The position numbers and the translations under genes are program-made. Below the pieces are notes generated by a model, which saw nothing but the letters and a program-made list of their open reading frames with translations, was not told where the DNA came from and searched no databases. DNA of 64,000 nucleotides from Dinoroseobacter shibae DFL 12 = DSM 16493 (lineage in GTDB: Bacteria; Pseudomonadota; Alphaproteobacteria; Rhodobacterales; Rhodobacteraceae), in the NCBI RefSeq assembly GCF_000018145.1, contig NC_009952.1, forward strand, positions 1,426,001 through 1,490,000, written 5' to 3'. Below, one piece after another: positions 47,157 through 62,151 of this stretch (its first letter is position 1; each line of letters begins with the position of its first letter).

Positions 47157-47532
47157 TTTTCCCGGATATCTGGGGGATCTGTGCGCGTTCTGCCTTTCGG
47201 GCGGGCACCGCGGGCTTGGCTGTGTGCGTCGTCGGGTCGAAAGCCAATGAGAGAGCCTCGGCCAGCTTTCGAGGCGGTCCCGTCGGATGCGGGGGCTATG
47301 GCCTGGGTCTGGGGGGCGGCGTGCGCATCAGGGGGCCGCTAGGCGGCGACCCGATCTAAGCGTTGCCAGTTCGCTTCGGCAGAAATCGCGGGTTTCAAGG
47401 TCCGCGACATATAGACGTTTCCTATAGCTCTGATAACGCGGCAGAGACTTCCGCCTTTCCCCTGTTCGAACGCATGCTTCGCCCCACTGAGCGATCGTCT
47501 TTCGACGGTTGGACCGGTTTGGGGAGGAAATC
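47157..47532 (+). promoter_or_regulatory. Intergenic region after tRNA-Thr with promoter of the CUT2 operon
   Basis: A 376-nt stretch without a credible gene. Reading frames that cross the tRNA are not coding. It contains a LysR-type box ATAG-N7-CTAT at 47411-47425, 107 nt before the binding-protein ATG, and the strong GGGGAGG ribosome site at 47521-47527. This is the likely promoter region of the 47533-56908 operon. Confidence 0.6.
47411..47425. promoter_or_regulatory. LysR-type operator ATAG-N7-CTAT (site 1)
   Basis: A perfect 4-bp inverted repeat with 7-nt spacer, ATAG-ACGTTTC-CTAT, which gives the classical T-N11-A pattern of LysR regulators. The same arrangement occurs at 61125-61139 and 62126-62140 near the LysR gene, so it is the probable control point of the CUT2 operon. 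Confidence 0.7.
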
Positions 47533-48705
47533 ATGAGAATGCGAATTTTGGCATCTTTGGGGTTGGTGTCGACCTTGATGATAAACACTGCCGCGATGGC
47601 AGAGGGCCTCGAAGAGTTGCCGCCGAAGCTTCAGGCCGCCTATCAGGGGGTCGACGAGGGCCAGCCGATCGGGACGTCGGCCTATCGCGACTGGACGCCT
47701 CGGTCCGGTCCGCCCTGGACCATCGGCTATGCAAGCTCCTATGCCGGCAACACGTGGCGCGCAGAGGGCTTGAGCCGTCTGACCGAGGATTTGCTGCCGG
47801 TTTACAGGCAGGCGGGGCTGGTTGACGAGATCATCGTCACGCAATCGGATCTCAACGACGCGCGCCAGATCCAGCAGATCCGACAGCTTGTGGACCAGGG
47901 CGTGGATGCGATCATCGTGTGCTGCTCGAACCCGGTCGCCCTGAACAAGGCCGTCGAATATGCCTACTCCAAGGGTGTCGTGGTGTTTTCCTATTCGGGC
48001 TATCTGACGTCGGACAAGGCGCTGAACGCCTCGTCGAACTATACGCTGGGCGGCTATGAAATCGCCAAGGCGATGATCGAGGAAGTGGGCGGCGAGGGGA
48101 ACTTCCTGCTGGTGTCGGGGATCGCGGGCGCGGCCTCTTCGGAGAGCTTCGACACCGGCGCCATGCGCGCCTTGGAGGAGTTTCCGAACGCCAAGCTGGT
48201 TGGCCAGGTCTGGGGCAACTGGACCGACCAAGTCGCCCAGACCGAGGTTCAGAAGTTCCTCGCAACCAACCCCGCGCGGATTGACGGGATCATCGCGCAG
48301 GGCTCCCAGGAAACCGGTGTGCTGAAGGCGGTGTTGCAGTCGGGCCGCGAGGTGATGCCGATCTCGCTGGCAGGCTCGGCCGGAGCGGCTTGCTATCTAA
48401 AGCAGAACCCCGATTGGATCAGCCATGCGTTCCAGATCTGGCCCCCGGGCGACGAGATGGAACTGGGCTTCAACTCGGTGATCCGCACGCTGCAGAACCA
48501 GGGTCCCAAACTGCAATCGATCCTGCGCGGGGTCTACCGGCTGCCCGCGGCGGAATACGTGGCGAGCCTGGGCGATGACTGCTCGGTCGACTCGACCGCG
48601 TACATCCAGCCGGGCATCGACGTCTGGTTCCCCGACGACAAGGCCGCCGGCTACTTCCTGCGGCCGGAAAACCCGCTCGATTGGGCCGCCAAGAACGTCA
48701 ACTGA
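47533..48705 (+). CDS. CUT2-type (ribose-like) ABC substrate-binding protein
   Basis: A 390-aa periplasmic binding protein of the Peripla_BP_4 type. A signal peptide covers residues 1-23 (AMA). The core contains WTIGYASSYAGNTWRAE, VDQGVDAIIVCCSNPVALN and EFPNAKLVGQVWGNW, as in sugar-binding proteins with two Rossmann-like lobes. GGGGAGGAAATC precedes ATG 47533. First gene of an operon with an RbsA-type ATPase and two permeases; it probably binds a sugar, polyol or related alcohol. Larger than ribose-binding proteins (about 300 aa). Confidence 0.9.
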   Translation: MRMRILASLGLVSTLMINTAAMAEGLEELPPKLQAAYQGVDEGQPIGTSAYRDWTPRSGPPWTIGYASSYAGNTWRAEGLSRLTEDLLPVYRQAGLVDEIIVTQSDLNDARQIQQIRQLVDQGVDAIIVCCSNPVALNKAVEYAYSKGVVVFSYSGYLTSDKALNASSNYTLGGYEIAKAMIEEVGGEGNFLLVSGIAGAASSESFDTGAMRALEEFPNAKLVGQVWGNWTDQVAQTEVQKFLATNPARIDGIIAQGSQETGVLKAVLQSGREVMPISLAGSAGAACYLKQNPDWISHAFQIWPPGDEMELGFNSVIRTLQNQGPKLQSILRGVYRLPAAEYVASLGDDCSVDSTAYIQPGIDVWFPDDKAAGYFLRPENPLDWAAKNVN

Positions 48706-48761
48706 GGCAGATCGCTCCCGGGGGATGTCCCCGGGGGCGGATCACCAAGAGGCACAGCAGC

Positions 48762-50309
48762 ATGTCAGCGATTTCCCTGTCGGATATCCATATGTCGTTC
48801 GGCGAAACGCGTGCGCTGGAGGGGGCTTCGCTGCAAGCCGATCTTGGCGAAATACACGCGATCGTGGGCGAGAACGGCAGCGGCAAGAGCACCCTGGCGA
48901 AGATCATGTCCGGGGTCATCCTGCCGGACAGCGGCGAGATCGACATCTTGGGTGTCCGCCCGACCCGACCCTCCGACGCCATCGCGGCAGGCATCTCGAC
49001 CATCTATCAGGAGATTTTCGTCGCAGAAGACCTGTCGATATGGGAGAACATCTTTGCCGGGGTCGACGGGCTGTGGCGCAAGAGGTGCCGCACGTCTGAA
49101 AAGAAGGCTCTGGCGCGCGATGTCCTCAAGCGGCTGGCGGAGGTCGATATCGACCCGGACACACCGGTGTCGGACCTGCCGCTGAACCTCAAGCAGTGGA
49201 TCGTGATCGCCAGGGCCATCCTGCAAAAGCCGCGGGTTCTGATTTTCGACGAAAGCTCTGCCGCGCTGGACCTCGACGCGACGAACCGGTTGCACCTGGA
49301 GATGCTCGCGCTCCGGGAGGCGGGGTCGTGCATCATCCTCGTCACCCATCGGATTGCCGAGCTGGTCAAGATCACGGACAGGGCGACGGTTCTCAGGGAT
49401 GGCAAGACGGTGGGTCGGCTGGAAAAGGGCGAAGTCACCGAAGACAGGCTTCTGCAGCTGATGTCGGCCGACACGCGGCATAACGCCCTCGGGTCACGGG
49501 CGCGGACCGTGGTGCCGGCAGCGCAGAAACCCGCGTTGGAGGCACGCCGGATGCGGCTGCCCGGCGGTGGGGCGCCGATCGATTTCAAGATCCATCCCGG
49601 CGAGATCGTGGGGCTTTCCGGTCTCGATGGTGCGGGGCAGTCGGAGTTCCTGCGCAGGCTGGCAGGTATCGATCCCGCGCCTTCCGGGACGGTGCGGGTC
49701 TGGGACAAATCGACCGAGTGGCGTTCGATCACCTGCCTGGCCGAGGCAGAGGCGGCGGCTATCACCTATGTGTCCGGGGACCGCAAGAAGGAAGGCATTT
49801 TTCCGAACCTGTCGATCTTCGAGAATTTCGCGATGCCGCTTTATGGGCGCCATTCCGGTCGGGGCGGTATGATAGACACGGAGACCTTGCATGCGTGCTT
49901 CGCCCAGGAGGAGGCGCGCTTGTCGATCAAGCACGGGGCGCGTCAGGATCGCATCACGACGCTCTCGGGAGGCAACCAGCAGAAGGTGCTGATTGCGCGC
50001 GCCTTTGCGCAGAACCCGCGCGTGATCCTGCTCAACGATCCGGCGCGGGGCGTGGATATCGGGACCAAGCAGGATCTCTATACTCATTTGCGCGCTTTCG
50101 CCTCCGAGGGTGGAGCGGTCGTCTACCTGTCCACCGAGATCGAGGAATTCTTCGACTTCGCGGATCGTGCGGACGTGTTCTTCGAAGGCAGCCTGTTTGC
50201 CAGTTTCGAGCAGGGCGGCATCACGCAAGACAACATTTTGGCCGCGATGTTCGGCAAGTCGCACCCGATCGAATTCGACGAGACCGTCAGAGCGGGAGGG
50301 CGGATGTGA
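48762..50309 (+). CDS. CUT2-type ABC ATPase (RbsA-like, double domain)
   Basis: A 515-aa protein with two ATPase domains. Domain 1 has Walker A GENGSGKST and Walker B LIFDESSAALD, with a degenerate signature (LPLNLKQWIVIARAI). Domain 2 has a degenerate Walker A (GLDGAGQSEF) and the canonical LSGGNQQKVLIARAF and VILLNDPARGVDIGTK. This asymmetry is normal for RbsA. ATG 48762 is preferred by position; the stop overlaps the permease ATG by 1 nt. Confidence 0.93.
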   Translation: MSAISLSDIHMSFGETRALEGASLQADLGEIHAIVGENGSGKSTLAKIMSGVILPDSGEIDILGVRPTRPSDAIAAGISTIYQEIFVAEDLSIWENIFAGVDGLWRKRCRTSEKKALARDVLKRLAEVDIDPDTPVSDLPLNLKQWIVIARAILQKPRVLIFDESSAALDLDATNRLHLEMLALREAGSCIILVTHRIAELVKITDRATVLRDGKTVGRLEKGEVTEDRLLQLMSADTRHNALGSRARTVVPAAQKPALEARRMRLPGGGAPIDFKIHPGEIVGLSGLDGAGQSEFLRRLAGIDPAPSGTVRVWDKSTEWRSITCLAEAEAAAITYVSGDRKKEGIFPNLSIFENFAMPLYGRHSGRGGMIDTETLHACFAQEEARLSIKHGARQDRITTLSGGNQQKVLIARAFAQNPRVILLNDPARGVDIGTKQDLYTHLRAFASEGGAVVYLSTEIEEFFDFADRADVFFEGSLFASFEQGGITQDNILAAMFGKSHPIEFDETVRAGGRM

Positions 50310-51271
50310 TGGAAGGCCTTGTCAGCCGCAACCGTCATCTTCTGGTGCCCTTCGGACTGGTGCTTGTCCTTGGCGTCATCGCGGCGGTCCGGGCGCCGCA
50401 GACCTTTACCTATGTTGGGCTGGCCGGGGCGTTGCTGGTCGCGGCACCGCTGATCCTCGCCGCCATTGCGATCACGCCTATCGCCATTGCCGGGCGCGGT
50501 GGTGTGGATTTGTCCATCGGTCCGCTGATCGGGTTCGTGAACGTCACGATCGTCGTGTGGCTGACCGGGAACGGCATCACCCATCCGGTGCTGGTCTTCG
50601 CCTATGCGATCCTTGCCGCGTGTGCCTGGCAGGCGCTGCTTGCTGCACTGATCATTCACGTGCGGATATCTCCGATCATCGCGTCGCTGGCCGGGTTCAT
50701 GATCTTGTCGGGGGTCAATCTCGTGATCCTGTCGCGTCCGGGCGGTTTCGCCCCGGAATGGCTGGGCAACTGGGGGTGGGGCACGGAACTGCTGAGCCCG
50801 GTTCTGTACATCCTGGTCGCGGCCTGCGTGATCTGGGCGCTTTTCTCGCGCACGCCGCTCTTTCAGCATATTCGGTTGATGGGTGCGGATGAGCGCACGG
50901 CCTATACCAGTGGCGTCGACATCGTCAAAGCCCGCTACGCCGCCCATCTTCTGGCGGGTGTGTTCGCGGGGTTGGCGGCGCTGTGCCTGACCGGGTTGAT
51001 CGGATCGGGCGATCCGACCCAGGGCAACACCCTGACCCTGCAGGCGATCACGGCGCTCGTTCTGGGGGGCACGTCGCTGTCCGGTGGCAAGGGTGGTATC
51101 ACCGGGTCCATTCTGGGCGCGCTTGCCATGTACCTGGTTTTCGTCGTGCTGTCCTCGTTCAACTTCGGCGCGATCTCGGGGTTCATGACGCAGCTTTTCT
51201 ATGGGCTAATGCTCGTGATCTCGCTCATGCTGGCGCTGGTCACATCGCGCCGTCGGGTCGCGGCGGTGTGA
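50309..51271 (+). CDS. CUT2-type ABC permease 1 (RbsC-like)
   Basis: A 320-aa permease with eight to ten hydrophobic helices and the RbsC-type signatures AGRGGVDLSIGPLIGF and ALVLGGTSLSGGKGGITGSILGA. It starts at the ATG that overlaps the ATPase stop (TGATG) after GGGAGGGCGG, and its stop overlaps the next gene's possible start. Confidence 0.92.
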   Translation: MEGLVSRNRHLLVPFGLVLVLGVIAAVRAPQTFTYVGLAGALLVAAPLILAAIAITPIAIAGRGGVDLSIGPLIGFVNVTIVVWLTGNGITHPVLVFAYAILAACAWQALLAALIIHVRISPIIASLAGFMILSGVNLVILSRPGGFAPEWLGNWGWGTELLSPVLYILVAACVIWALFSRTPLFQHIRLMGADERTAYTSGVDIVKARYAAHLLAGVFAGLAALCLTGLIGSGDPTQGNTLTLQAITALVLGGTSLSGGKGGITGSILGALAMYLVFVVLSSFNFGAISGFMTQLFYGLMLVISLMLALVTSRRRVAAV

Positions 51272-51312
51272 TGGACTGGCCTTTTCCCACTGCAGATACA
51301 GGAGCGCACGCC

Positions 51313-52302
51313 ATGTCACGCAGACCGAAAAGACTGCGCGCGGAACATCGGGGCCTCGTTCTGGGAAGTCTTCTTCTGGTCGCGCTGTTCACCGCCGCGT
51401 CGATCCTGGTGGAGGGCTTTGCCTCGGCAAACAACATCCGGTCGATCCTGCTGCTGGCGGCTTTCCTCGGGCTCGCGGCCCTGGGGCAGACCATGGTGGC
51501 CACGGTGGGGGGGCTCGATCTGTCGATCCCCTTCGTGATCGGCGCTTCCAATATTCTTCTGGCCTATCTTTTCGGCACAAGCCTGCCTGCGCCCCTCGCC
51601 ATTCTCTGCATTCTCGCGATGGGGGCGCTGATCGGGGTTCTGAACGGTGTGATGAGCTACCGGATCCAGGGCCAGGCATTGATCCTGACCCTGGGCGTGG
51701 GGTTTGCCGTAGTGGGCGGTGCCCAGATTTTCACGAGCCTGGGGTCGCAGTTCTCGGGCACGGTCTTCAGCCAGGTGCCCGGGTGGTTTTCAAACATCGC
51801 CTCGATCAGCGGGACGACCTTCGGGCTGAAACTGCCGCCGGTCATCCTGATCTGGGCCGCGATTGCGGCAAGCCTGATCTTCTGGATCAACCGGACCCGT
51901 GCGGGCCGCGCGATCTATGCCATCGGCGGCAATAGGACGGCGGCGGCCCGGCTGCGCATCTCTGAGTTCCGGGTCTGGGTGTCGACGTACACGATTTCGG
52001 GCCTGACGGCGGCGGCCACGGGGTGCCTGCTGCTGGGGTTTTCGGGGGGCGGTTTCGTGGGCGTGGGCGACCCGTATCTGTTCACCACCGTCGCCGCGGT
52101 CGTGGTGGGGGGCACCTCCCTGCTGGGCGGGACGGGCGGTTACGGCGCCACGGTGATCGGTGTGTTGGTCTTGCAGGTCTTGACCTCTTTCCTCGTCGGC
52201 ATGGGCTTGGACTACGCCGCGCAACAGACGGTTTTCGGGCTGCTGATCCTGCCGATGGTGGCGCTTTATGCCCGCGCACCACACATCCGCTATCAAATCT
52301 AG
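51313..52302 (+). CDS. CUT2-type ABC permease 2 (RbsC-like)
   Basis: A 329-aa permease with TVGGLDLSIPFVIGASNI and VVVGGTSLLGGTGGYGATVIG, matching permease 1 in build; two different permeases imply a heterodimer. ATG 51313 has AGGAG at good spacing; an in-frame ATG at 51271 (overlapping the previous stop) would add 14 residues. It is followed after 18 nt by an aldehyde dehydrogenase. Confidence 0.9.
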   Translation: MSRRPKRLRAEHRGLVLGSLLLVALFTAASILVEGFASANNIRSILLLAAFLGLAALGQTMVATVGGLDLSIPFVIGASNILLAYLFGTSLPAPLAILCILAMGALIGVLNGVMSYRIQGQALILTLGVGFAVVGGAQIFTSLGSQFSGTVFSQVPGWFSNIASISGTTFGLKLPPVILIWAAIAASLIFWINRTRAGRAIYAIGGNRTAAARLRISEFRVWVSTYTISGLTAAATGCLLLGFSGGGFVGVGDPYLFTTVAAVVVGGTSLLGGTGGYGATVIGVLVLQVLTSFLVGMGLDYAAQQTVFGLLILPMVALYARAPHIRYQI

Positions 52303-52320
52303 ACCAAAGGGAGACACGGC

Positions 52321-53775
52321 ATGAACGTACAAACAGGTTTCGCACAGGACGTTCGGGTGGATTTCACGGGGCCTTACCGGCACGCCATCAACGGGGCGCT
52401 GGTCGACAGTGCCGGGAGCTTCGAGGTGTTCAACCCGGCCACCGACGAGGTGGTGGCACACGCCCCCAACGCGTCACGGGATCAGGTGGAGCAGGCCATC
52501 GCCGCGGCAAAGGCTGCGCAACCGGGCTGGGCCGCGCTGAGCCAGGACGAACGCGGGGCTTATATCGCGGCCTATGCGGACGCTCTGGACGCGCACAAGC
52601 AGGAGTTGATCACGCTGCTGACGACCGAGCAGGGCAAGCCGCGCCATTCGATGGCGACCACGGAGGTCGAGTACGCCATCTTTTGGGTCCGCGAAGTCGC
52701 CAAGCGGCGGCTCGAAGACGAGGTTATCGAGGACACGCCCGAGCATACGGTGAAGGTTGCGCACACGCCCCTGGGCGTGGTGGGCGCGATCACGCCGTGG
52801 AATTTTCCCGTGCTGCTGGGCCTGTGGAAGATCGCGCCGTGTCTCGTCACCGGCAACACGATGGTGATGAAACCCTCGCCCTACACTCCCCTCTGCACGC
52901 TGCGCTTTGGCGAGATCGCGCAGCAGGTGTTCCCGGCGGGGGTACTCAACGTCGTGGCGGGGGGCAACGAACAGGGGGCCTGGTTGACCGAGCATCCCGA
53001 TATCGCGAAAATTTCGTTCACCGGGTCGACGGCGACGGGCCGGAAGGTCATGGCGTCTTCGTCGTGCAACCTCAAGCGGATCACGCTGGAGCTTGGCGGC
53101 AACGATCCGGCGATCCTTTTGCCCGGCACGGACTACAAGCCGCTGATCCCCACGCTGTTCGACGCGGCCTATGGCAACTCCGGTCAGTGGTGCATCGCGG
53201 TCAAGCGCCTCTATGTCCACGAGAGCCTCTATGACGATTTCCTGCGGGATTTCGTCGCCCATGCGGCGGAAAAGACCGTCGGCAACGGCATGGACCCCAA
53301 CACTGATCTCGGCCCGATCCAGAACAAGATGCAATACGGCAAGCTCAAGGATCTGTTCGCCGATGTGAAGGCGCAGGGTCTGTCGGTGCCGCTGGGGGGT
53401 GAGATCCCCGATGGTCCGGGGAATTTCGTGCCGATCACCATTGTGGACAATCCCCCGAAAGACAGCCGTGTCGTGCGCGAAGAACCGTTTGGCCCGATCC
53501 TGCCGATCATCAAGTGGTCGGACCTGGACGAGGTCGTGCGCGATGCAAATGACACGGAATTCGGTCTTGCCGCGTCGGTCTGGGGGCCGGATCGCGACAC
53601 GGCGATCGGGGTTGCAAACAGACTGGAGGCGGGCACTGTCTGGGTGAACGAGATCCACATTCACGGAATCGATATCCCCTTCGGTGGACACAAGCAGTCG
53701 GGCATGGGGGTAGAGAACGGGCAGGAAGGTTTGAAGGAGTTCACCAACACCAAGACCTATATGTTCAGGAAGTAG
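52321..53775 (+). CDS. NAD(P)-dependent aldehyde dehydrogenase
   Basis: A 484-aa ALDH. TPWNFPVLLGLWKIAPCLVTGNTMVMKPSP binds the cofactor, the general base Glu is in LELGGNDPAIL and the catalytic Cys is in SGQWCIAVKR (about Cys285; Trp instead of the usual Val/Thr before it). It resembles succinate-semialdehyde or aliphatic ALDHs. It is in the CUT2 transporter operon and so likely oxidises an aldehyde made from the imported compound. A 10-bp hairpin lies between it and the fumarase gene. Confidence 0.92.
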   Translation: MNVQTGFAQDVRVDFTGPYRHAINGALVDSAGSFEVFNPATDEVVAHAPNASRDQVEQAIAAAKAAQPGWAALSQDERGAYIAAYADALDAHKQELITLLTTEQGKPRHSMATTEVEYAIFWVREVAKRRLEDEVIEDTPEHTVKVAHTPLGVVGAITPWNFPVLLGLWKIAPCLVTGNTMVMKPSPYTPLCTLRFGEIAQQVFPAGVLNVVAGGNEQGAWLTEHPDIAKISFTGSTATGRKVMASSSCNLKRITLELGGNDPAILLPGTDYKPLIPTLFDAAYGNSGQWCIAVKRLYVHESLYDDFLRDFVAHAAEKTVGNGMDPNTDLGPIQNKMQYGKLKDLFADVKAQGLSVPLGGEIPDGPGNFVPITIVDNPPKDSRVVREEPFGPILPIIKWSDLDEVVRDANDTEFGLAASVWGPDRDTAIGVANRLEAGTVWVNEIHIHGIDIPFGGHKQSGMGVENGQEGLKEFTNTKTYMFRK

Positions 53776-53789
53776 TGCAAGACACGGCT

Positions 53790-53815
53790 AGGCGGCCCGC
53801 CCGTTCGGGCCGCCT
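53790..53815 (+). promoter_or_regulatory. Intra-operon hairpin between ALDH and fumarase
   Basis: A perfect 10-bp stem AGGCGGCCCG/CGGGCCGCCT (53790-53799 with 53806-53815, 6-nt loop) fills the 57-nt gap, ending 17 nt before the next ATG. It has no T-tract, so an mRNA stabiliser or partial attenuator is more likely than a strong terminator. Confidence 0.55.
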
Positions 53816-53832
53816 GTGAGCCGCCAGGGACC

Positions 53833-55350
53833 ATGATGACGCAAGCCACAGTTCTGAAACCCGATGACATCGTCGAAACCGTACGCGCGGCGCTGCAATA
53901 CATCGCCGTTTATCATGCCCCCGACTACCTGGCGCATCTGGCCAGCGCCTATGCCCGTGAGCAGAGCCCCGCCGCGAAGGCGGCGATGGGGCAGATCCTG
54001 GAAAGTTCGCGCCTGGCTGCACTGGGGCGACGGCCGATTTGCCAGGACACGGGCATGGTGACGGTCTTTGCGCGGTTGGGACAATCGGCGATGATCGCCG
54101 GGGACCGGACCTTGTACGAGTTGGTCAACGAGGGCGTGCGCCTGGCCTACCTGGATGCGGGCAATCCCTTGCGGGCCTCGATGGTGGCAGACCCGCTTTT
54201 AGAGCGCAGAAACACCGGCGACAACACCCCCGCCGTCACCCATGTGGAGCTCACGCGGGGCAATAAGTTGGAGCTCTTGATTGCGGCCAAGGGCGGTGGG
54301 TCCGAGAACAAGGCGCGCTACACGATGCTCAACCCGGCGGCCTCGGTTGAAGACTGGGTTGTCTCGACGATCGAAGGGCTGGGGGCCGGGTGGTGTCCGC
54401 CCGGCCTGGTGGGCGTCGGCGTCGGGGGCAGCGCGGAGCAGGCTATGCTGATCGCCAAGCGCGCGGTCATGGAGGAAATCGACATGTCCGACCTGCTGGC
54501 CCGCGGCGCGTCCACACCGCTCGAGGAGATGCGCGTGCGGCTCTACCACCGCATAAACGCGCTCGGGATCGGGGCACAGGGTCTTGGCGGCTTGACCACG
54601 GTGGTCGATGTGAAACTGGCCACCGCGCCCACGCATGCCGCGTCCAAGCCTGTGGCGCTGGTGCCGCAATGCGCCGCGAACCGACATGCGAAGGTCGTGA
54701 TGGATGGCAGCGGTCCGGCCTATCTCGATGCGCCCGATCTGGCTGCCTGGCCGCGGATCGAGGGGTCGGAAATGGCGGGTCTGCGCCGGGTGAACGTGGA
54801 CAGGCTCACGCGTGAGGAGATGGCCGGATGGGCCCCGGGCGAGACGCTGCTGCTGTCGGGCCGGATCCTGACCGGGCGCGACGCGGCCCACAAGCGCATG
54901 GCCGACATGCTGGCGCGTGGAGAAGAGTTGCCGGTGTCGTTGCGGGGACGGGTGATCTATTATGTCGGGCCGGTGGACCCGGTGGATGGGGAGGCGGTCG
55001 GACCCGCCGGTCCCACTACCGCCACACGCATGGATCCGTTCACCAGCGACATGCTGGGCCAGGGTCTGTTTGCCATGATCGGCAAGGCCGAGCGGGGCGC
55101 GGAGACCGTCCGGGACATAGCGCGCCACAAGGCCGCCTACCTGATCGCGGTAGGTGGCGCCGCGGTCCTGGTGGCAAAGGCGATCCGGTCCTCGAAGGTG
55201 CTGGCGTTCGAGGATTTGGGCATGGAGGCGATCCGGGAGTTCACGGTCGAGGACATGCCAGTCATGGTGGCGGTCACGACGCAAGGGGCGGCGATCCATC
55301 AGACCGGACCTGCGGCTTGGAGAGGTGCCCAGCAGAGCGCTCCGGCGTGA
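53833..55350 (+). CDS. Class I (Fe-S) fumarate hydratase/mesaconase-like enzyme
   Basis: A 505-aa iron-sulfur hydratase. The N-terminal domain has CQDTG (about Cys74), GDNTPAVTH and GGGSENKARYTML; a second Cys is in GWCPPGLVGVGVGG (about Cys194) and a third in VPQCAANRHA (about Cys280), the expected three [4Fe-4S] ligands. The C-terminal swivelling domain ends in GPTTATRMDPF and YLIAVGGAA. Class I fumarases also hydrate mesaconate to citramalate, relevant because the next gene is a CitF-like CoA-transferase. Start ATG 53833 (or 53836). Confidence 0.9.
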   Translation: MMTQATVLKPDDIVETVRAALQYIAVYHAPDYLAHLASAYAREQSPAAKAAMGQILESSRLAALGRRPICQDTGMVTVFARLGQSAMIAGDRTLYELVNEGVRLAYLDAGNPLRASMVADPLLERRNTGDNTPAVTHVELTRGNKLELLIAAKGGGSENKARYTMLNPAASVEDWVVSTIEGLGAGWCPPGLVGVGVGGSAEQAMLIAKRAVMEEIDMSDLLARGASTPLEEMRVRLYHRINALGIGAQGLGGLTTVVDVKLATAPTHAASKPVALVPQCAANRHAKVVMDGSGPAYLDAPDLAAWPRIEGSEMAGLRRVNVDRLTREEMAGWAPGETLLLSGRILTGRDAAHKRMADMLARGEELPVSLRGRVIYYVGPVDPVDGEAVGPAGPTTATRMDPFTSDMLGQGLFAMIGKAERGAETVRDIARHKAAYLIAVGGAAVLVAKAIRSSKVLAFEDLGMEAIREFTVEDMPVMVAVTTQGAAIHQTGPAAWRGAQQSAPA

Positions 55351-55360
55351 CGCCGGAGCG
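55338..55360 (+). promoter_or_regulatory. Hairpin with the fumarase stop codon in its loop
   Basis: A perfect 10-bp stem CGCTCCGGCG/CGCCGGAGCG whose 3-nt loop is exactly the fumarase stop TGA (55348-55350). The stem's 3' half ends just before ATG 55361 and contains GGAG, so folding would hide a ribosome-binding sequence for the CitF-like gene and couple its translation to ribosomes terminating on fumarase. Confidence 0.6.
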
Positions 55361-55375
55361 ATGAGAGGCGTGAGC

Positions 55376-56908
55376 GTGACACCACAAGGCTCAATCCTAG
55401 ACACGGCGCGATGGCCCGCCGGGGCCGCCCCGGTGACAACGCCGCTCGGCTTGCTCCTGCCGGTCGGCAACCCGGCACCGGCCCTGTCCGTGTTGCCGCC
55501 GCGCGCCGACGCCGGGGACGGTCGGAAACTGCGCCCGGGTCTGGAGGTCGTGTTCGACGAGCTCGGGATTGCGGATGGCCGGACCCTGTCCTTTCACCAT
55601 CACTACCGCGACGGCGACCGGGTGGTTGTCGAGGTGATGCGACTTGCGCGGGAACGCGGGTTGAAGGGGCTCACGATCTGCCCGAGTTCGATCTTTCCGA
55701 CCCATTCCAGCCTGGTTCCGTTGCTCGAAGATGGCACGATCACAAGCATCGTGACCGACTACATGCGGGGTCCCGTAGCCGATTGGATAACGGCGCATCC
55801 CGGACGTGTCACGGTCCTGCTGCAGAGCCATGGGGGGCGCGCGCGGGCCATCTCATCGGGCCAGTTGAAGATCGATGTCGCCTTTGTCGGCGCGTCCCTG
55901 GCAGACCGCAGGGGGAACCTGACGGGGCGGGCAGGCGCCCTGGCTTGCGGACCGCTTGGCTACCCGGCGGTCGATGCGCAGTATGCAAAGGCCACGGTGG
56001 GCATGGCCCATGACGTGACCGACGCCGCGCTGCCCCGCGTGGATATTCCCGCCCGGTTTGTGGATCTCGTCGTGCCGTTCGAGCGCCCCGGAGACGCCAA
56101 CCGCATCCGGTCCGGGTCGACCGTGCCGAGCGAGACGCCGTTGTCGCGCGGCATCGCAGAGCGGAGTTCGGACATCATCGCGGCGGCGGGGCTGCTGACC
56201 GAAGAGTTCGCCCTTCAAAGCGGGGCGGGGGGCTATTCCCTCGCCGCGGTGCCGCATGTGGGATCCTTGTTGGCAGCGCAGGGCATGCGCGGCGCCTTCA
56301 TGTCGGGCGGGATCACGTCGGCCCATGTGGAGCTTCTGAGGGCCGGTGTCTTTCGCGCGATCCGGGATGTGCAGTGTTTCGACCTCGAAGCCGTACGCTC
56401 GGCGATCGAGAACCCCGATCACCAGATGATGACAGCCGCCGAATATGCCAGCCCGCTGCACCCGAACCCCTGCGTGGACGACTTGTCGGTCATGCTGCTG
56501 GGCGCGGTCGAGGTGGATTTCGGCTTCAACGTAAATGTGGTCAGCGGCACGGATGGCCGGATCCTCGGTGGGCCGGGCGGGCATCCCGATGCGGCCCGGG
56601 GGGCGGATCTGAGCATCGTCTTGACGTCGTTGACGGGCGGCGGGTTTGCCAAGATCGTCCCCGCCGTGCGCTGCGTTTCGACGCCGGGCGTGGATGTGGA
56701 TGTGGTGGTTACCGAAGCCGGTTTTGCCATCAACCCGGCCCGTGCGGACCTGGTCGCCCGTTTGACGCGGGCGGGACTGAAGCCGGTAGAGATCGAGGAT
56801 CTCGCGCGCATCGCCGGGGCCCAGGCTGCGCACAGCCCCGCACCCCTTGCCGAGCGTCCGTCCGTCCATATCGAGCGCCGCGATGGCCTGATCCTCGATT
56901 GGGTGTAG
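55376..56908 (+). CDS. CitF-like citrate/citramalate lyase alpha subunit (CoA-transferase)
   Basis: A 510-aa protein of the citrate lyase alpha (CitF) family, which transfers CoA/ACP between acetyl and citrate or citramalate. It shows FHHHYRDGD, GLTICPSSIFPTHSSLVPLL, MSGGITSAH and DFGFNVNVVSGTDGRILGGPGGHPDAA, family blocks for the two Rossmann-like domains. GTG 55376 has GAGAGG at good spacing; ATG 55361 is an alternative (515 aa). CitE and CitD subunits are absent from the window, so it may work as a stand-alone hydroxyacid CoA-transferase next to the hydratase. Confidence 0.85.
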   Translation: MTPQGSILDTARWPAGAAPVTTPLGLLLPVGNPAPALSVLPPRADAGDGRKLRPGLEVVFDELGIADGRTLSFHHHYRDGDRVVVEVMRLARERGLKGLTICPSSIFPTHSSLVPLLEDGTITSIVTDYMRGPVADWITAHPGRVTVLLQSHGGRARAISSGQLKIDVAFVGASLADRRGNLTGRAGALACGPLGYPAVDAQYAKATVGMAHDVTDAALPRVDIPARFVDLVVPFERPGDANRIRSGSTVPSETPLSRGIAERSSDIIAAAGLLTEEFALQSGAGGYSLAAVPHVGSLLAAQGMRGAFMSGGITSAHVELLRAGVFRAIRDVQCFDLEAVRSAIENPDHQMMTAAEYASPLHPNPCVDDLSVMLLGAVEVDFGFNVNVVSGTDGRILGGPGGHPDAARGADLSIVLTSLTGGGFAKIVPAVRCVSTPGVDVDVVVTEAGFAINPARADLVARLTRAGLKPVEIEDLARIAGAQAAHSPAPLAERPSVHIERRDGLILDWV

Positions 56909-56943
56909 CGCCGCCGCGCAGTGTTCCTTCGGCCGTTGCAACG

Positions 56944-56972
56944 AAAAACCCCGCCCGCAGGCGCGGACGGGG
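56944..56972 (-). terminator. Terminator of the GMC oxidoreductase gene
   Basis: On the minus strand a 10-bp GC stem (56963-56972 with 56949-56958, one G-T pair, 4-nt loop) is followed by five T residues (A-run at 56944-56948). It lies between convergent genes and may also end the citF transcript on the other strand, where no T-tract is present. Confidence 0.85.
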
Positions 56973-57001
56973 TCAGGAGTGGTGGCGTTCGAGTGGTCTG
57001 T

Positions 57002-58705
57002 CTAGGTTGCTTTGGAGATCATGTCACCCGCGCGCCAACCGATCATCATGGTCGGCGCGTTGGTGTTGGAGGTGGTGATCTGCGGCATGACGGACGCATC
57101 CGCAACTCGCAGGCCCTCAATGCCTTTCACGCGCAGATCCGGCTCCACCACCTTGCCGATCTGGCATGTGGATGTGGGGTGGAAATAGGTGTTGACCGAC
57201 GCGGAGAGGAAGTCGCGCCATTCGGCATCCGTCAGCTCCCCGTCCTTCTGCGGCAGGCTCTCGCGCTTGCGGAACTCGGCATAAGCGTCCGAGGCGCCCA
57301 ACTCGCGGCACAGCTCGGTCGCGGCACGGTAGGACTTCCAATCCTGTTCCTCGGCCAGGTAATTGGTCTCGATGATCGGGGCATCCGCGATGTCGTCAGA
57401 CGCCAGCTTGACGTAGCCGCGCGATTGCGGCGTCGCGACGCCCGAGAGAATGCAGTAGCCGTGCTCGTAATCCAGCTTGTGACCGGTAGAGGCGAAGGGC
57501 ACCGAAACATAGAGCGCGATCATGTCGGGTGACCGCAGGCCCGGATCCGATCGTTCCCACATGTAGACTTCGGAGTGGTTGTAATGGCTGACCGGCACGG
57601 GGCCCTTGGCTTCGTAGTTCACACCTGCGCCGAGAATGTGGTCCTGGAGCCCGACACCAACCGGCAAGTCGACGACGGCGTCGATCCCGACCTGCCTGAG
57701 GTCGGACGCGATGCCGATCCCCGACAGCATCAGCAGCCTGGGGCTGTCGATGGCCCCGGCCGAGAGGATCACCTCGTTCGCCGCCCGGACGCTGACGGGC
57801 GCGCCGTTGTGCAGGTAGGTGACCCCGGTGCATTTCGTGCCCTCCAGGGTCAGCTTCTGGACCGGGGCATCGGTCAGCAGCGTGATGTTGCCGTTCTCGA
57901 TCGCCGGGCGCAGGAATGCGACTGCAGACGACTGACGCCGCTGGTCCTTGATGTTGAAATCGATCCAGGCCTGACCGGACATCCGATCGGAGTTGAAGGA
58001 CGGCGTTTCTTTGTATCCCAGCCCCGCCGCGGCATCCATGAACGCGACGGCCCCTTCGTGGCGGTGTGGGTCCTGGGGTTGGCTGACAAAGATCGGGCCG
58101 CTGGTGCCGCGGTTCTCGCCCCCGGGCTCATAGCTTTCCATCGCCATGAAATGCGGTAGTACGTCTTCATAGCTCCAACCGGTGGCACCCATCGTCTCCC
58201 AGACGTCGAAATCGGTCCTGTGCCCGCGCGCATAGACCATCGCGTTCAAGGCAGATGTCCCGCCCAACACATTGCCGCGCGGCCACATGTGATTGCGTCC
58301 ATCCGTATGGCTGGAGGGCAGGGTTTCGAACCATTTCGTGGCGTCGGTGCCAAGGGACGCAGCCCACAGGCGGCTGTCATGGACCTCTTCGAGGTCGTCG
58401 TTGCGCCCGGCTTCGAGCACGAGGATCCGCGCGCCTGTCTGAGCCAGTTGATACACGCAAGCGGCCCCGGCGGAGCCCGTGCCGATCACGATGAAGTCGT
58501 ATTCCCCGTCGGGCTGCGGCGCGGTGGTCGAAGACTGCGCGATTGCCGTGCCGGACCAGGCTGTCGCGAGCGCACCGGCCATGCCGGCGGTCGCCCCCAG
58601 CGCCATTGCACGGCGCAGGAAATCGCGTCGGCTCATGGCGCCCTGGCGGTAGTCAAAGACAGCGCGCTCCAGTGCGCCATGTCCTGCGGATCGAAAATAT
58701 CCCAT
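57002..58705 (-). CDS. Tat-exported GMC oxidoreductase (choline/alcohol dehydrogenase-like)
   Basis: A 567-aa FAD enzyme with a twin-arginine signal (SRRDFLRRAMALGATAGMAG, about residues 25-44), so it acts in the periplasm. The FAD-binding DFIVIGTGSAGAACVYQLA and GARILVLEAG, the GGTSALNAMVYARGH segment and the active-site NTYFHPTSTCQIG (catalytic His) are typical of the GMC family that oxidises alcohols such as choline, glucose or polyethylene glycol. It is the last gene of the ALDH-SDR-GMC operon, 81 nt after the SDR, and is followed by a strong terminator. Confidence 0.9.
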   Translation of the reverse strand: MGYFRSAGHGALERAVFDYRQGAMSRRDFLRRAMALGATAGMAGALATAWSGTAIAQSSTTAPQPDGEYDFIVIGTGSAGAACVYQLAQTGARILVLEAGRNDDLEEVHDSRLWAASLGTDATKWFETLPSSHTDGRNHMWPRGNVLGGTSALNAMVYARGHRTDFDVWETMGATGWSYEDVLPHFMAMESYEPGGENRGTSGPIFVSQPQDPHRHEGAVAFMDAAAGLGYKETPSFNSDRMSGQAWIDFNIKDQRRQSSAVAFLRPAIENGNITLLTDAPVQKLTLEGTKCTGVTYLHNGAPVSVRAANEVILSAGAIDSPRLLMLSGIGIASDLRQVGIDAVVDLPVGVGLQDHILGAGVNYEAKGPVPVSHYNHSEVYMWERSDPGLRSPDMIALYVSVPFASTGHKLDYEHGYCILSGVATPQSRGYVKLASDDIADAPIIETNYLAEEQDWKSYRAATELCRELGASDAYAEFRKRESLPQKDGELTDAEWRDFLSASVNTYFHPTSTCQIGKVVEPDLRVKGIEGLRVADASVMPQITTSNTNAPTMMIGWRAGDMISKAT

Positions 58706-58786
58706 GTTGTCCTCCTTAGATCCCGGAGTGCGCCCGGGGTTTTTGATCGCGTGACCGCGATATGCCTCGCGCGCGCGGCGCGTGTG

Positions 58787-59557
58787 TCAGACCGTCCGCC
58801 CGCCATCGACCTCCAGGATGACGCCGGTGATGAAATTCGCTTCGTCAGAGGCCAGGTAGAGCGCCGCATTGGCCATGTCTTCTGGCTCGCACAGGCGCCC
58901 CAACGGAATGGTGCCGAGGAACTTCGCGCGGTTCTCCGGCGTGTCCGGCATTCCCATGAAGGTCTCGAGCAAGGGCGTCGCGCCCATGACCGGGGCCAGA
59001 CCGCAGACCCTTACCCGGTCGGGGGCCAGTTCCACGGCGAGTGTCTTGGTCATCATGTTCACGGCCCCCTTCGAGCTATTGTACCAACTCAGACCCGGGC
59101 GCGGTCGGATACCCGCGGTGGAGCCCACATTGATCATCACGCCGCCCCCGATGTCACGCCAATGGGGCACCAGAGCATGGGTGGCATGAAAGATGCTGTC
59201 CACATTGACTTCATAAACGCGTTTGAAAGTCTCGAAATCCACATCCAGCGCGGGCTGATTGCGGTGGCTCCAGCCTGCGTTGTTGATGGCGATATCCACG
59301 CGCCCGAAAGCGTCGATCGTTTCTTGGACGGCCCGCGAAACATCCGCGCCCTTGGAGACATCGCAGGTGACCGCGATGGCATTCTGCTGCAACGCGTCGG
59401 CGACGGCCTTTGCGCCTTCGCCGTTCAGGTCCACGATCGCCACCCGGGCGCCTTCACGCACGAACCGGCGGGCAATCTCGCGACCGAACCCGGAGGCGGC
59501 ACCCGTCACGATCGCGGTTTTGCCCGACAGGCGTCTCGAAGTGTTCGTTTCCGTCAT
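58787..59557 (-). CDS. Short-chain dehydrogenase/reductase
   Basis: A 256-aa classical SDR. The NAD(P)-binding TGAASGFG (about residues 19-26), the acidic D in VAIVDLN that favours NAD, NNAG (about 92-95), catalytic Ser in NVGSTAG and YNSSK are intact. It likely oxidises a secondary alcohol or sugar-derived intermediate. It lies 15 nt after the ALDH gene and 81 nt before the GMC gene in the same operon. Confidence 0.93.
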   Translation of the reverse strand: MTETNTSRRLSGKTAIVTGAASGFGREIARRFVREGARVAIVDLNGEGAKAVADALQQNAIAVTCDVSKGADVSRAVQETIDAFGRVDIAINNAGWSHRNQPALDVDFETFKRVYEVNVDSIFHATHALVPHWRDIGGGVMINVGSTAGIRPRPGLSWYNSSKGAVNMMTKTLAVELAPDRVRVCGLAPVMGATPLLETFMGMPDTPENRAKFLGTIPLGRLCEPEDMANAALYLASDEANFITGVILEVDGGRTV

Positions 59558-59572
59558 TGAAAGGCCCGTCCC

Positions 59573-61036
59573 TCAGCCATGATTCTGTACCACTGTCTTG
59601 ATCTGTGAGAACTCGTGCAGCGCTGCGAAGCCCTTTTCTCGGCCATGGCCGGACTTGCGCATGCCGCCAAACGGCAACTCGATCCCGCCGCCCGCGCCGT
59701 AGCAATTGAGAAAGACCTGTCCGACGCGCAGACGTTTGGCGAGCCGCATCTGGCGACCGCCATCCGCGCTCCAGACACTTGCGACCAGACCGTAGTCGGT
59801 GGCGTTGGCAATGCGGATCGCGTCTGCCTCGTCGGTGAACGGAATGCAGGACAGGACCGGGCCGAAGACCTCTTCTCGGGCCAGCACATGGCCCTCGATC
59901 ACGGGGCCAAACAGGGCTGGGGCCACGAAGCTGCCCGCCTCGGAGGCGCTAGCGGCGATCCTGCCCCGGGCGACCAGAGGCGCGTCCGCACCACCGCCCT
60001 CGGCGATGAAGCCTTCGACGCGACGTTTCTGTTTGTGCGAGATCAAGGGGCCGAGATTGCCGTTCTCCTGCCAGGGTGCGGCGGTCAGCGCTTCGAACCC
60101 GGCCTTCAGCCTGGCCAGCACCGCATCAAAAATATCGCGCTGGATCAGCGCGCGCGACCCGGCGGAGCATGTCTGCCCGCCATTTTGCACGATCCCGTTC
60201 AGCAAAACCGGGATAGCCGCGTCGAGATCGGCATCTGCAAAGACGATCTGCGGCGACTTGCCGCCAAGTTCCAGAGTGCAGCCGATATGATTCCGCGCCG
60301 CGGCGGTCTGGATCATGACGCCGACCTCGGGCGAGCCGGTGAACGACAGGAAATCCACGTCGCGGTGGGTGGTGAGCGCCGCCCCCGCCTCCTGGCCATA
60401 TCCGGTGACGACATTGATCGCGCCCCCCGGAAACCCGACCTCCAGCGCCAGTTCGGCGATGCGCAGGGGCGTCAGGCAAGCATCTTCGGCCGGTTTGAGA
60501 ACCACCGCGTTGCCCATGGCCAGTGCAGGTGCGCAGGAGCGTCCGAACATCTGCGCGGGATAGTTCCAAGGAATGATATGCCCCGTGACCCCGTAGGGTT
60601 CGAAGATCGTCTGAACTTGATAGCCCGACAGGAACGGGATGGTCTCGCCATGCACCTTGTCCGCCGCGGCGCCGTAATACTCGAAATAGCGGGCTGCGGC
60701 GACCATATCGGCCCGGGCCTGTGCCAGAGGCTTCCCGGTATCCTTCGCCTCCCATTCGGCAAGCTCCTGCCCATGGGCGGTGATGGCTTCGCCCAGCTTG
60801 TGCAGCAGGCGGCCCCGGTCAACGGCCGTGAGCCTGGACCATTCCCCATCCTCGAAGGCTCTGCGGGCTGCGGTCACCGCCCGGTCGACCTCGTCGGGGC
60901 CGCATGCCGGGATCTGGGCGATCTTCTCGCCCGTCGCAGGGTTTGTCACGTCGATGCGAGGACGATGGTCTGCGAACTCGGCTGCGCAGCCGATGATACA
61001 GGGGAAAGACCTTTTCACTTCGGCCTGCGTGTTCAT
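59573..61036 (-). CDS. NAD(P)-dependent aldehyde dehydrogenase, second copy
   Basis: A 487-aa ALDH. The cofactor motif IIPWNYPAQMFGRSCAPALA, the base Glu in LELGGKSPQIV and the nucleophile in GQTCSAGSR (about Cys292) are present, closer to betaine/aminobutyraldehyde ALDHs than the copy at 52321. The start at 61036 is MNTQAEV; an upstream extension overlaps the LysR gene and is not used. First gene of the ALDH-SDR-GMC operon; the operator at 61125 lies 89 nt upstream. Confidence 0.92.
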   Translation of the reverse strand: MNTQAEVKRSFPCIIGCAAEFADHRPRIDVTNPATGEKIAQIPACGPDEVDRAVTAARRAFEDGEWSRLTAVDRGRLLHKLGEAITAHGQELAEWEAKDTGKPLAQARADMVAAARYFEYYGAAADKVHGETIPFLSGYQVQTIFEPYGVTGHIIPWNYPAQMFGRSCAPALAMGNAVVLKPAEDACLTPLRIAELALEVGFPGGAINVVTGYGQEAGAALTTHRDVDFLSFTGSPEVGVMIQTAAARNHIGCTLELGGKSPQIVFADADLDAAIPVLLNGIVQNGGQTCSAGSRALIQRDIFDAVLARLKAGFEALTAAPWQENGNLGPLISHKQKRRVEGFIAEGGGADAPLVARGRIAASASEAGSFVAPALFGPVIEGHVLAREEVFGPVLSCIPFTDEADAIRIANATDYGLVASVWSADGGRQMRLAKRLRVGQVFLNCYGAGGGIELPFGGMRKSGHGREKGFAALHEFSQIKTVVQNHG

Positions 61037-61124
61037 GCTGCGTCCGCCCAGTTTCGCTGATTGCGAGGCCAAGGATAGGGCCCGGCACCCGGTATCGGCA
61101 ATTCCGATGGCAACATGGCCCGTA

Positions 61125-61139
61125 TAGGAAACACCTATA
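61125..61139. promoter_or_regulatory. LysR-type operator ATAG-N7-CTAT (site 2)
   Basis: ATAG-GAAACAC-CTAT (T-N11-A) inside a 7-bp perfect inverted repeat GTATAGG-N5-CCTATAC (61123-61141). It covers the LysR stop codon (61135-61137) and lies 89 nt upstream of the ALDH-SDR-GMC operon start. Same pattern as sites 1 and 3. Confidence 0.75.
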
Positions 61140-62091
61140 CCGTGACGCTTTGGGTCTCTTCCACGAGCTTTCCGCGCCACTGCCCGCGCAAGACCAGATC
61201 CTTCACCACAGCGATGGTCGCCTTCTCAACCTCTGACGAGGCCCGGGTGCGGGGCTTTTCCGGATTTCGGACGAGATACACGGGTCGACTGATCACGGGA
61301 TCGATGATCTTCGATGACGCGAGTTCGCCGCGGGCCTCAAAATCGCTGGCCGCGGCAGGCGCCAGGATAGTCGACGCGCTGCCGCGCGCAACCAGCGATT
61401 TGATCTGCGTGAGGGAATCCATCTCCACAACCACGTTCAAATCGCGGATTGCGCCCTTGGTCGAGTGGTTGATCAGCATCCGCAGCCCGTGGGATTTCGA
61501 CGGCAGCACCAGTTCGACGCCGGACAGGTCCTTTATCGCGACCGGCGTGCCCGGCGGCGTCTTCAGCGGCCAGAGGTCCCGGGGTGCATAGAAATGCAGG
61601 TTTTCTTCGAGCAGCATCGTGACTTCGACGTTTTTCAAACCACTGGTCTCGTAGAGGATTGCCAGATCAACGGTCTGCTCTTCGAGCCATTCCTTGATGA
61701 AGCCGCTCATGGCGTCCACGGCGCGCAGGCGGATCTTGGGGTGTTCATGCCGGATCGTCTCGGCGAGGGGCACGGATAGGACCATGGAGACCGACGACGG
61801 AAAGCCGAACACCACCCGGCCCGACGCGTCCTCGCCCGCTTGCCTCACGGCCAGTTTTGCATCCCTCACCGACCGCAACAAACCCTCGGCATGGCTCAGC
61901 AGGACTGTGCCCGCATCCGTCAGCATGACACCACGCGGCGAGCGGACGAAGAGCTGTGCGCCCAGACGCTGCTCGAGGTTCTTCAACTGAACCGAAAGCG
62001 AGGGTTGGGCGATACCTATAACCTCCGCGGCCGAGGCGAGAGACCCGCAGCGCGCAATGGCCAGGAAATACTCGAGCTGTTTGAATTCCAT
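61135..62091 (-). CDS. LysR-family transcriptional regulator
   Basis: A 318-aa regulator. The N-terminal winged HTH (EFKQLEYFLAIARCGSLASAA, then QPSLSVQLKNLEQRLGAQLFVRS) is intact, and the C-terminal effector domain begins about residue 90 (RVVFGFPSSVSM). Three ATAG-N7-CTAT boxes in the window fit a single regulator of the surrounding block. It is divergent from the CoA-transferase at 62222 and its own start lies 34 nt from site 3, so autoregulation is likely. Effector unknown. Confidence 0.94.
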   Translation of the reverse strand: MEFKQLEYFLAIARCGSLASAAEVIGIAQPSLSVQLKNLEQRLGAQLFVRSPRGVMLTDAGTVLLSHAEGLLRSVRDAKLAVRQAGEDASGRVVFGFPSSVSMVLSVPLAETIRHEHPKIRLRAVDAMSGFIKEWLEEQTVDLAILYETSGLKNVEVTMLLEENLHFYAPRDLWPLKTPPGTPVAIKDLSGVELVLPSKSHGLRMLINHSTKGAIRDLNVVVEMDSLTQIKSLVARGSASTILAPAAASDFEARGELASSKIIDPVISRPVYLVRNPEKPRTRASSEVEKATIAVVKDLVLRGQWRGKLVEETQSVTV

Positions 62092-62125
62092 GCTGCGTTC
62101 CCCACCTGTCCCACACGAAGTTACG

Positions 62126-62151
62126 ATAGCTTGATCCTATAGCGCATCAAG
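62126..62151. promoter_or_regulatory. LysR-type operator region (site 3) between lysR and CoA-transferase
   Basis: ATAG-CTTGATC-CTAT (62126-62140, T-N11-A) is the third copy of the operator, and a partly overlapping inverted repeat CTTGAT-N10-ATCAAG (62130-62135 with 62146-62151) may extend the activation site. It lies 81 nt upstream of the CoA-transferase ATG and 34 nt from the lysR ATG. Confidence 0.72.

Follow-up and report, generated by a model that had tools for sequence, protein, structure and literature searches.

In the window of Dinoroseobacter shibae DFL 12 analyzed here (64,000 nt of contig NC_009952.1, numbered below from its first letter), a LysR-type regulator encoded at 61135-62091 very probably binds TATAG-N7-CTATA-like sites at three promoters, which would make about 16 kb of DNA one local regulon. 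Its predicted members are an operon of a periplasmic binding protein, an ATP-binding cassette (ABC) transporter, aldehyde dehydrogenase 1 (ALDH1), a fumarase and a CitF-like protein; a second operon of aldehyde dehydrogenase 2 (ALDH2), a short-chain dehydrogenase (SDR) and a GMC oxidoreductase; a CoA-transferase gene; and lysR itself. The initial annotation had proposed that these catabolic units form a single regulon under one LysR, and this proposal is supported by conservation of the motif at the corresponding promoters of seven other genomes. Judged from these comparisons, LysR control of the three operons is highly likely, and the predicted regulon is a conserved cis-regulatory unit. Transporter, dehydrogenase, fumarase, and CoA-transferase genes that have been annotated separately would thus form a single regulatory unit with a defined operator, so that both the pathway and its inducer can be tested directly.

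Occurrence of the operator in the window and the genome

The exact palindrome ATAG-N7-CTAT was found three times in the window and nowhere else within it (Table 1), as the initial annotation had stated. The positions given there for the first and third copies (47411-47425 and 62126-62140) and their distances of 107 and 81 nt to the start codons were right, whereas the second copy had been placed one base too high (61125-61139 instead of 61124-61138) and 89 rather than 87 nt from its start. That three such sites beside one LysR gene are unlikely by chance was borne out, with 0.03 copies expected in the window and three or more copies reached in 0 of 100 dinucleotide shuffles. Because the motif was picked after the fact, the chance value for one window is a weak argument, and the strong test lies in relatives that played no part in the choice.

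A search of the organism's own genome (4.42 Mb, six contigs) returned 13 copies, compared with 8 of a reversed-pattern control, and three of the 13 fall within 15 kb at the window cluster. The motif is therefore rare rather than equally common throughout the genome. Six of the ten other copies lie inside reading frames called by a crude script, as would suit the view that the three matches are chance palindromes, and no gene recognizably of the cluster was seen, with translations judged by eye, within 3 kb around any of the ten. One copy stands at the start of the ribosomal protein gene rplM (named by eye), and two others, 521 bp apart, accompany a different LysR gene, the first within it and the other immediately upstream (G000:C4:77687-78222; L012, L013).

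Conservation at orthologous promoters

Relatives were chosen by similarity of the LysR protein alone, with no use of the motif. A protein search gave 27 loci, six of which were orthologue-like at 66-77% identity: those of a Roseibium metagenome-assembled genome (MAG; 77%), Loktanella (73%), an alphaproteobacterial MAG (71%), a Tepidamorphus MAG (70%), Rhizobium chutanense (66%), and Rhizobium giardinii (66%); the next was Palleronia, at 55%. Genome G865 (61%), from a later search of the family of R. chutanense (297 genomes, E 1e-110) in which it was the one new genome, completes the set of seven genomes whose lysR shares at least 61% identity. Searching the family of the Roseibium MAG (87 genomes, E 1e-110) yielded no new genome, and a class-wide search (385 genomes, E 1e-100) yielded one besides the organism's own, apparently the assembly of the alphaproteobacterial MAG (L017), as its list of motif sites is identical. 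Plasmid records contained four lysR homologues, at 48-51% identity; two of these records were inspected, one of which carries no annotation.

Each of the seven orthologous clusters carries exact sites: four each in Roseibium, Loktanella, and R. chutanense, three each in Tepidamorphus, R. giardinii, and G865, and two in the alphaproteobacterial MAG. The site just 3' of lysR is exact in 7/7, and ALDH2 or SDR comes next in six; Loktanella has other reading frames after this site and a further site 447 nt before SDR. Upstream of the CoA-transferase, six of the seven sites are exact and the seventh has one mismatch, and where the contig reaches the binding protein, its upstream site is exact in four of five cases, again with one mismatch in the fifth. 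In both Rhizobium genomes the gene order has changed, the CoA-transferase and fumarase being divergent and ALDH2 standing alone, and each of these promoters has a site. The alphaproteobacterial MAG site L017:9596, between the fumarase and a CitF remnant, is not clearly at a promoter, and a site in Roseibium is as far as 530 nt upstream of the binding protein. The motif is thus present, not absent, upstream of the same genes in relatives.

Whole-genome counts in the seven relatives were 9, 14, 11, 8, 22, 21, and 28, a total of 113 copies in ~36.6 Mb, of which 23 lie within the 105,389 bases of the clusters, where uniform scatter would place 0.33 and where the reversed control has two. Palleronia (L019/G780; one exact copy in the genome and none in the stretch) was kept outside this count. 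The special feature is the local concentration at the clusters, not the frequency genome-wide, which in the relatives is no higher than that of the reversed control; although the latter point, too, would be expected of chance palindromes, that explanation is contradicted by the conservation at orthologous promoters, and we give it next to no credence.

The same motif emerged from a scan of all 256 half-sites with spacers of 3-16 (3,584 palindromes) in six held-out clusters, made without the window and without R. giardinii, a near copy of R. chutanense. ATAG-N7 ranked first of the 3,584, with 20 occurrences against 0.56 expected from base composition, and rank 2 was TATA-N9, which fits the flank extension TATAG-N7-CTATA. 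Since the null model keeps base composition only, lower ranks partly reflect other sequence biases.

Anatomy of the sites and a proposed switch

Fifteen activation-type sites were aligned, each read towards its target; this set does not include the sites of the CoA-transferase or of R. giardinii, the distal Roseibium site L091:9945, or the unclear L017:9596. T at offset 24 and T at offset 39 each occur in 14/15 (6e-6 after correction for 540 tests), and offset 24 is 22 bp, or two helical turns, past the T of the first arm. Operator 1 of the window is followed by GATA as its half-site 22 bp downstream. Beyond the palindrome, A stands at 16 in 13 sites and at 23 in 11; before it, T is immediately 5' in 12 and G is at -2 in 14. 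TTG occupies 38-40 in eight sites, all among the ten targets other than the binding protein, and these ten have a TA step at 61-63 (TAGCAT, TAGTTT, TATCCT, etc.; read off the aligned list). With TTG and the TA step taken as -35 and -10 elements, the operator centre falls near -65. The five binding-protein promoters have a CTTCC-like sequence in the first (-35) place and no clear -10. Together, the aligned sites suggest the standard LysR anatomy, with an operator at about -65, a half-site two helical turns downstream, and a TTG-type -35.

On the lysR side of the shared intergenic region, TTGA stands at one offset in 7/7 aligned loci, the window included, and in Roseibium, Loktanella, and Tepidamorphus the CTAT arm continues as TATAAT or TATAAC, where the window has TATCGT. 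In R. chutanense the gene divergent from the CoA-transferase is the fumarase, not lysR. The operator would lie between the -35 and -10 elements of lysR, a geometry that fits self-repression.

In the model inferred from these conserved sites and from their distances to promoter-like boxes, a LysR dimer would occupy the full palindrome at about -65, and the second dimer of a tetramer would settle on a weak half-site, (A/C)AT, 22 bp farther downstream. Once a pathway inducer is bound, this second dimer would contact RNA polymerase at an otherwise weak promoter. At the divergent promoter of lysR, the same operator would sit between -35 and -10, so that binding there would repress lysR. The circuit so proposed is a LysR switch of a well-known kind.

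The nitrogen assimilation control protein (NAC) has the consensus ATA-N9-TAT. This is a pattern that the operator fits, and NAC is the regulator's best NCBIfam match (PRK11233), although the score of 179 bits lies below the equivalog cut-off of 309 and the regulon predicted here is local, beside its own regulatory gene. A study of six LysR systems (PMC5002191) places 15-bp sites at -66, -44, and -35 of the Escherichia coli oxyS start; the present operator is placed near -65 and its half-site near -43. The 15-bp operator of ATAG-N7-CTAT type and the self-repression of oxyR described there for the OxyR/IlvY/CynR group resemble the arrangement proposed here, which differs in having only a half-site as its second site, no cysteine outside the DNA-binding domain, and catabolic targets. 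For PcaQ of Sinorhizobium meliloti, likewise an alphaproteobacterial catabolic LysR, the same study (PMC5002191) reports an ATA...TAT site whose centre is 65.5 bp from the target, on its upstream side, but PcaQ has N10 spacing and controls pca genes, and the window LysR reached 103 bits with TIGR02424, whose cut-off is 304.

Local LysR control versus OxyR

The ATAG-N7-CTAT core is not specific to the window LysR. It is the published OxyR unit, two of which are recognized in tandem at intervals of 7-10 bp (PMC5720770, PMC8787470). It might then be supposed that an OxyR-type peroxide regulator encoded elsewhere in the genome owns the sites and that the adjoining lysR is incidental. The genome does have an OxyR-like gene (203 bits, under the OxyR cut-off of 329) with a motif copy 12 nt upstream, a further copy adjoins a MauG/di-haem enzyme-like gene, and the two regulators have closely similar recognition helices, QPSLSVQLKNLE in the window LysR and QPSLSAQIQNLE in the OxyR-like protein. 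Several observations run the other way. A complete second unit at intervals of 7-10 bp, on either side, was found at 0/22 cluster sites (the best match has 6/8 letters), and the best second-unit matches at the three window sites have 3, 3, and 5 of 8 letters, so the tandem arrangement of OxyR is lacking. The sites accompany this lysR in seven genomes, also at its own promoter where lysR adjoins the CoA-transferase. A scan of ten genomes returned no match to the OxyR-like protein at E 1e-60 in six, five of which belong to the seven, and yet all six keep the motif at this cluster; a more distant OxyR could lie below this threshold. As for the window LysR itself, it has a single cysteine, C15, in its DNA-binding domain, and hence not the redox pair of OxyR, and it scores 88.6 bits against the OxyR equivalog PRK11151 (cut-off 329).

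The bases that flank the core differ as well. In the own genome, the two copies close to oxidative genes have G...C flanks, as does the copy at an oxyR-like gene in G865, whereas the cluster sites mostly have T...A; a Roseibium copy by an oxyR-like gene has A...A. A follows CTAT in 19/22 cluster sites read towards the target, as against 0/10 of the other own-genome sites on the strand printed (Fisher 4e-6) or 1/10 with either strand allowed (Fisher 7e-5); these 22, like those searched for tandem units, exclude the R. giardinii sites and L017:9596. Given the lack of tandem units, the missing OxyR-like match in 6/10 genomes, and the flank differences, local LysR control appears much more likely than OxyR control, which we regard as very improbable.

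Dual control, in which the window LysR and the OxyR-like protein would both bind the shared core and link catabolism to redox state, draws on the same common core and similar recognition helix, and a cysteine stands at residue 211 (by raw numbering) in the LysR of all but one of the seven relatives and in the OxyR-like protein. The different flanks of the two sets of sites speak against it, as do the lone C15 of the window LysR, the lack of any cysteine in that of Roseibium, and the six genomes with no match to the OxyR-like protein at the above threshold; dual control therefore seems improbable, if somewhat less so than OxyR control on its own. Under the preferred reading of local LysR control, the genome would offer a compact example in which two regulators of the LysR family share a core site and have nearly identical recognition helices.

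The OxyR-like gene of the own genome is located at G000:C1:735724-736650, and the copy beside it (G000:C1:736663-736677; L002:1501-1515) has G...C flanks and a divergent gene resembling, by eye, a membrane NADH dehydrogenase/antiporter. ATAGGAAATTCCTAT (G000:C1:2811421-2811435; L009:1501-1515), also with G...C flanks, lies between the MauG/di-haem enzyme-like gene and a divergent frame, and is a candidate OxyR-type site.

Counter-evidence and more distant homologues

Several points weigh against the regulon as proposed. Operator 2 overlaps the lysR coding sequence (61135-62091), the TAG stop codon of which forms part of its first ATAG arm in minus-strand reading. The binding-protein and CoA-transferase promoters of the window have no clear -35 and -10, the promoter offsets were chosen after the alignment had been viewed, and neither window region yielded a sigma-70-like site in a scan for consensus promoters; this empty result is what is expected of weak activator-dependent promoters, and equally of no promoter at all. 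The core motif is common to OxyR, with a copy upstream of the genome's own OxyR-like gene. In the seven relatives, the motif is not commoner genome-wide than the reversed control (113 vs. 151), and orthologous sites are not independent of one another. Lastly, among 16 genomes whose LysR is 37-56% identical, the exact site at the lysR/CoA-transferase promoter was present in just three (G292, G011, and G066), which indicates that the exact motif is mainly a property of the window's own clade.

These 16 genomes are Palleronia and 15 from a family scan (394 genomes, E 1e-60), which gave 17 with a LysR match including the window's own and G163 (Loktanella, already counted); G292 has two such regulators, and G273 was read over 3.9 kb. 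All three genome-wide copies in G292 and three of the six in G011 lie in the cluster, and in G321 and G371 a single copy was seen at another place in the stretch. Degenerate versions of the motif were seen between lysR and the CoA-transferase in G357 and G371. The recognition helix reads SQHV(L/I)(S/A)LE in G357, G371, G292, Palleronia, and G004, compared with SVQLKNLE. A tree built from 24 regulators resolved the deep branches poorly, included a very long OxyR-like branch, left twelve rows ungrouped, and was used for no claim; the two motif gains or losses counted on it were no better than with shuffled labels (mean 1.9).

Genes of the cluster and candidate pathway

The distant relatives' stretches contain CoA-transferase, SDR, CitE, CitF, and fumarase genes in varying combinations, with no GMC match and no CUT2 importer except for one permease match in G011. 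Gene content across relatives thus suggests two modules, a lower one that would cleave a C4/C5 hydroxy-dicarboxylate and an upper one that would produce this compound from a sugar-like precursor. A CitE-like lyase occurs in the stretch of five of the seven relatives (Roseibium, the alphaproteobacterial MAG, both Rhizobium genomes, and G865) and was not found in the window cluster; querying the genome with the CitE of L017 gave four unlinked loci, 34-41% identical (five rows, two of them one gene). With no linked CitE, the pathway could be complete only if a lyase encoded elsewhere took part or if its final step were another one.

Published gene clusters for degradation of the C5-dicarboxylates itaconate, mesaconate, and citramalate (PMC12290011, PMC4682846) comprise a CoA-transferase, a class I fumarase able to act as a mesaconase, and a CitE-type lyase, in likeness to the present set; the window cluster differs in its CUT2 importer, GMC oxidoreductase, SDR, and two aldehyde dehydrogenases, in its lack of CitE, and in having no hydratase of the itaconate kind among its listed genes. 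Literature searches on mesaconase/citramalyl-CoA lyase, citramalate-polyol combinations, and methylerythritol catabolism brought up no title or abstract that treats this gene set, and no substrate follows from the solved structures closest to the binding protein, CoA-transferase, CitF, fumarase, and CitE.

A wider reading, which we hold to be unlikely in its entirety, joins both lines: the regulon would control an undescribed modular pathway, and LysR and the OxyR-like protein would share an operator core and be told apart by a flanking base pair. Its upper module, made up of the CUT2 importer, a periplasmic GMC oxidoreductase, ALDH1, and ALDH2, would oxidize a polyol, sugar-like or branched, to an acid; one possible substrate is a 2-C-methyl-tetrol. 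Its lower module of SDR, class I fumarase, CitF, CaiB CoA-transferase, and CitE would split a C4/C5 hydroxy-dicarboxylate (e.g., a citramalate or methylmalate) into an acyl-CoA and a 2-oxo acid. In Roseibium, a tannase/feruloyl esterase family gene follows the CoA-transferase on the same strand (L014:7001-8437), a possible hint at a plant ester as the source of the substrate.

Among the genes listed in Table 1, the binding protein has xylF as its best NCBIfam match, far below cut-off, and its nearest solved structures include CUT2 binding proteins. The N-terminus of the GMC oxidoreductase, read directly, is twin-arginine-like (SRRDFLRR). LysR has both an N-terminal LysR helix-turn-helix and a C-terminal LysR substrate domain.

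Table 1. Operators, proposed promoter elements, and genes of the putative LysR regulon (window positions).
Feature	Positions	Strand	Basis or remark
Operator 1, ATAGACGTTTCCTAT	47411-47425	+	107 nt upstream of binding protein ATG 47533
Operator 2, ATAGGTGTTTCCTAT	61124-61138	-	87 nt upstream of ALDH2 ATG 61036
Operator 3, ATAGCTTGATCCTAT	62126-62140	+	lysR/CoA-transferase intergenic; 81 nt upstream of ATG 62222
Proposed -35 of ALDH-SDR-GMC operon, TTGCCG	61096-61101	-	predicted from TTG of aligned targets
Proposed -10 of ALDH-SDR-GMC operon, TATCCT	61072-61077	-	predicted by comparison with other targets
Proposed lysR -35, TTGATG	62145-62150	-	predicted
Proposed lysR -10, TATCGT	62123-62128	-	predicted; overlapped by operator 3
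CUT2-type periplasmic binding protein, XylF-like	47533-48705	+	Pfam Peripla_BP_4
ABC transporter ATPase, two ABC domains	48762-50309	+	Pfam ABC_tran, two stretches
ABC transporter permease 1	50309-51271	+	Pfam BPD_transp_2
ABC transporter permease 2	51271-52302	+	Pfam BPD_transp_2
ALDH1	52321-53775	+	Pfam Aldedh
Class I (Fe-S) fumarase/tartrate dehydratase-type hydro-lyase, halves fused	53833-55350	+	Pfam Fumerase and Fumerase_C
CitF-like CoA-transferase (citrate lyase alpha family)	55361-56908	+	Pfam CitF; under NCBIfam citF cut-off
GMC oxidoreductase	57002-58705	-	Pfam GMC_oxred_N/C
SDR	58787-59557	-	Pfam adh_short_C2
ALDH2, first gene of ALDH-SDR-GMC operon	59573-61036	-	
lysR, LysR-type regulator, 318 aa	61135-62091	-	Pfam HTH_1 4e-22, LysR_substrate 1e-28
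CaiB/BaiF family III CoA-transferase	62222-63370	+	Pfam CoA_transf_3

Other transport genes were noted in the relatives. Tepidamorphus has an additional operator 124 nt upstream of a Peripla_BP_6 binding protein that is followed by branched-chain-type ABC genes (L016:10821-12249), perhaps a second importer in the same regulon, and branched-chain-type ABC genes also occur in some of the distant relatives (recognized by eye or from annotation). Short matches to permease 2 follow the binding protein in both Rhizobium clusters (L018:7948-8226 and L020:7956-8183), the latter stretch also containing a fuller ABC gene set (L020:74-3609). The window encodes a SnoaL-like protein after another ABC transporter just before the cluster (44855-45379), and a SnoaL-like protein is found with a glutathione S-transferase in the stretch of G371 (L078).

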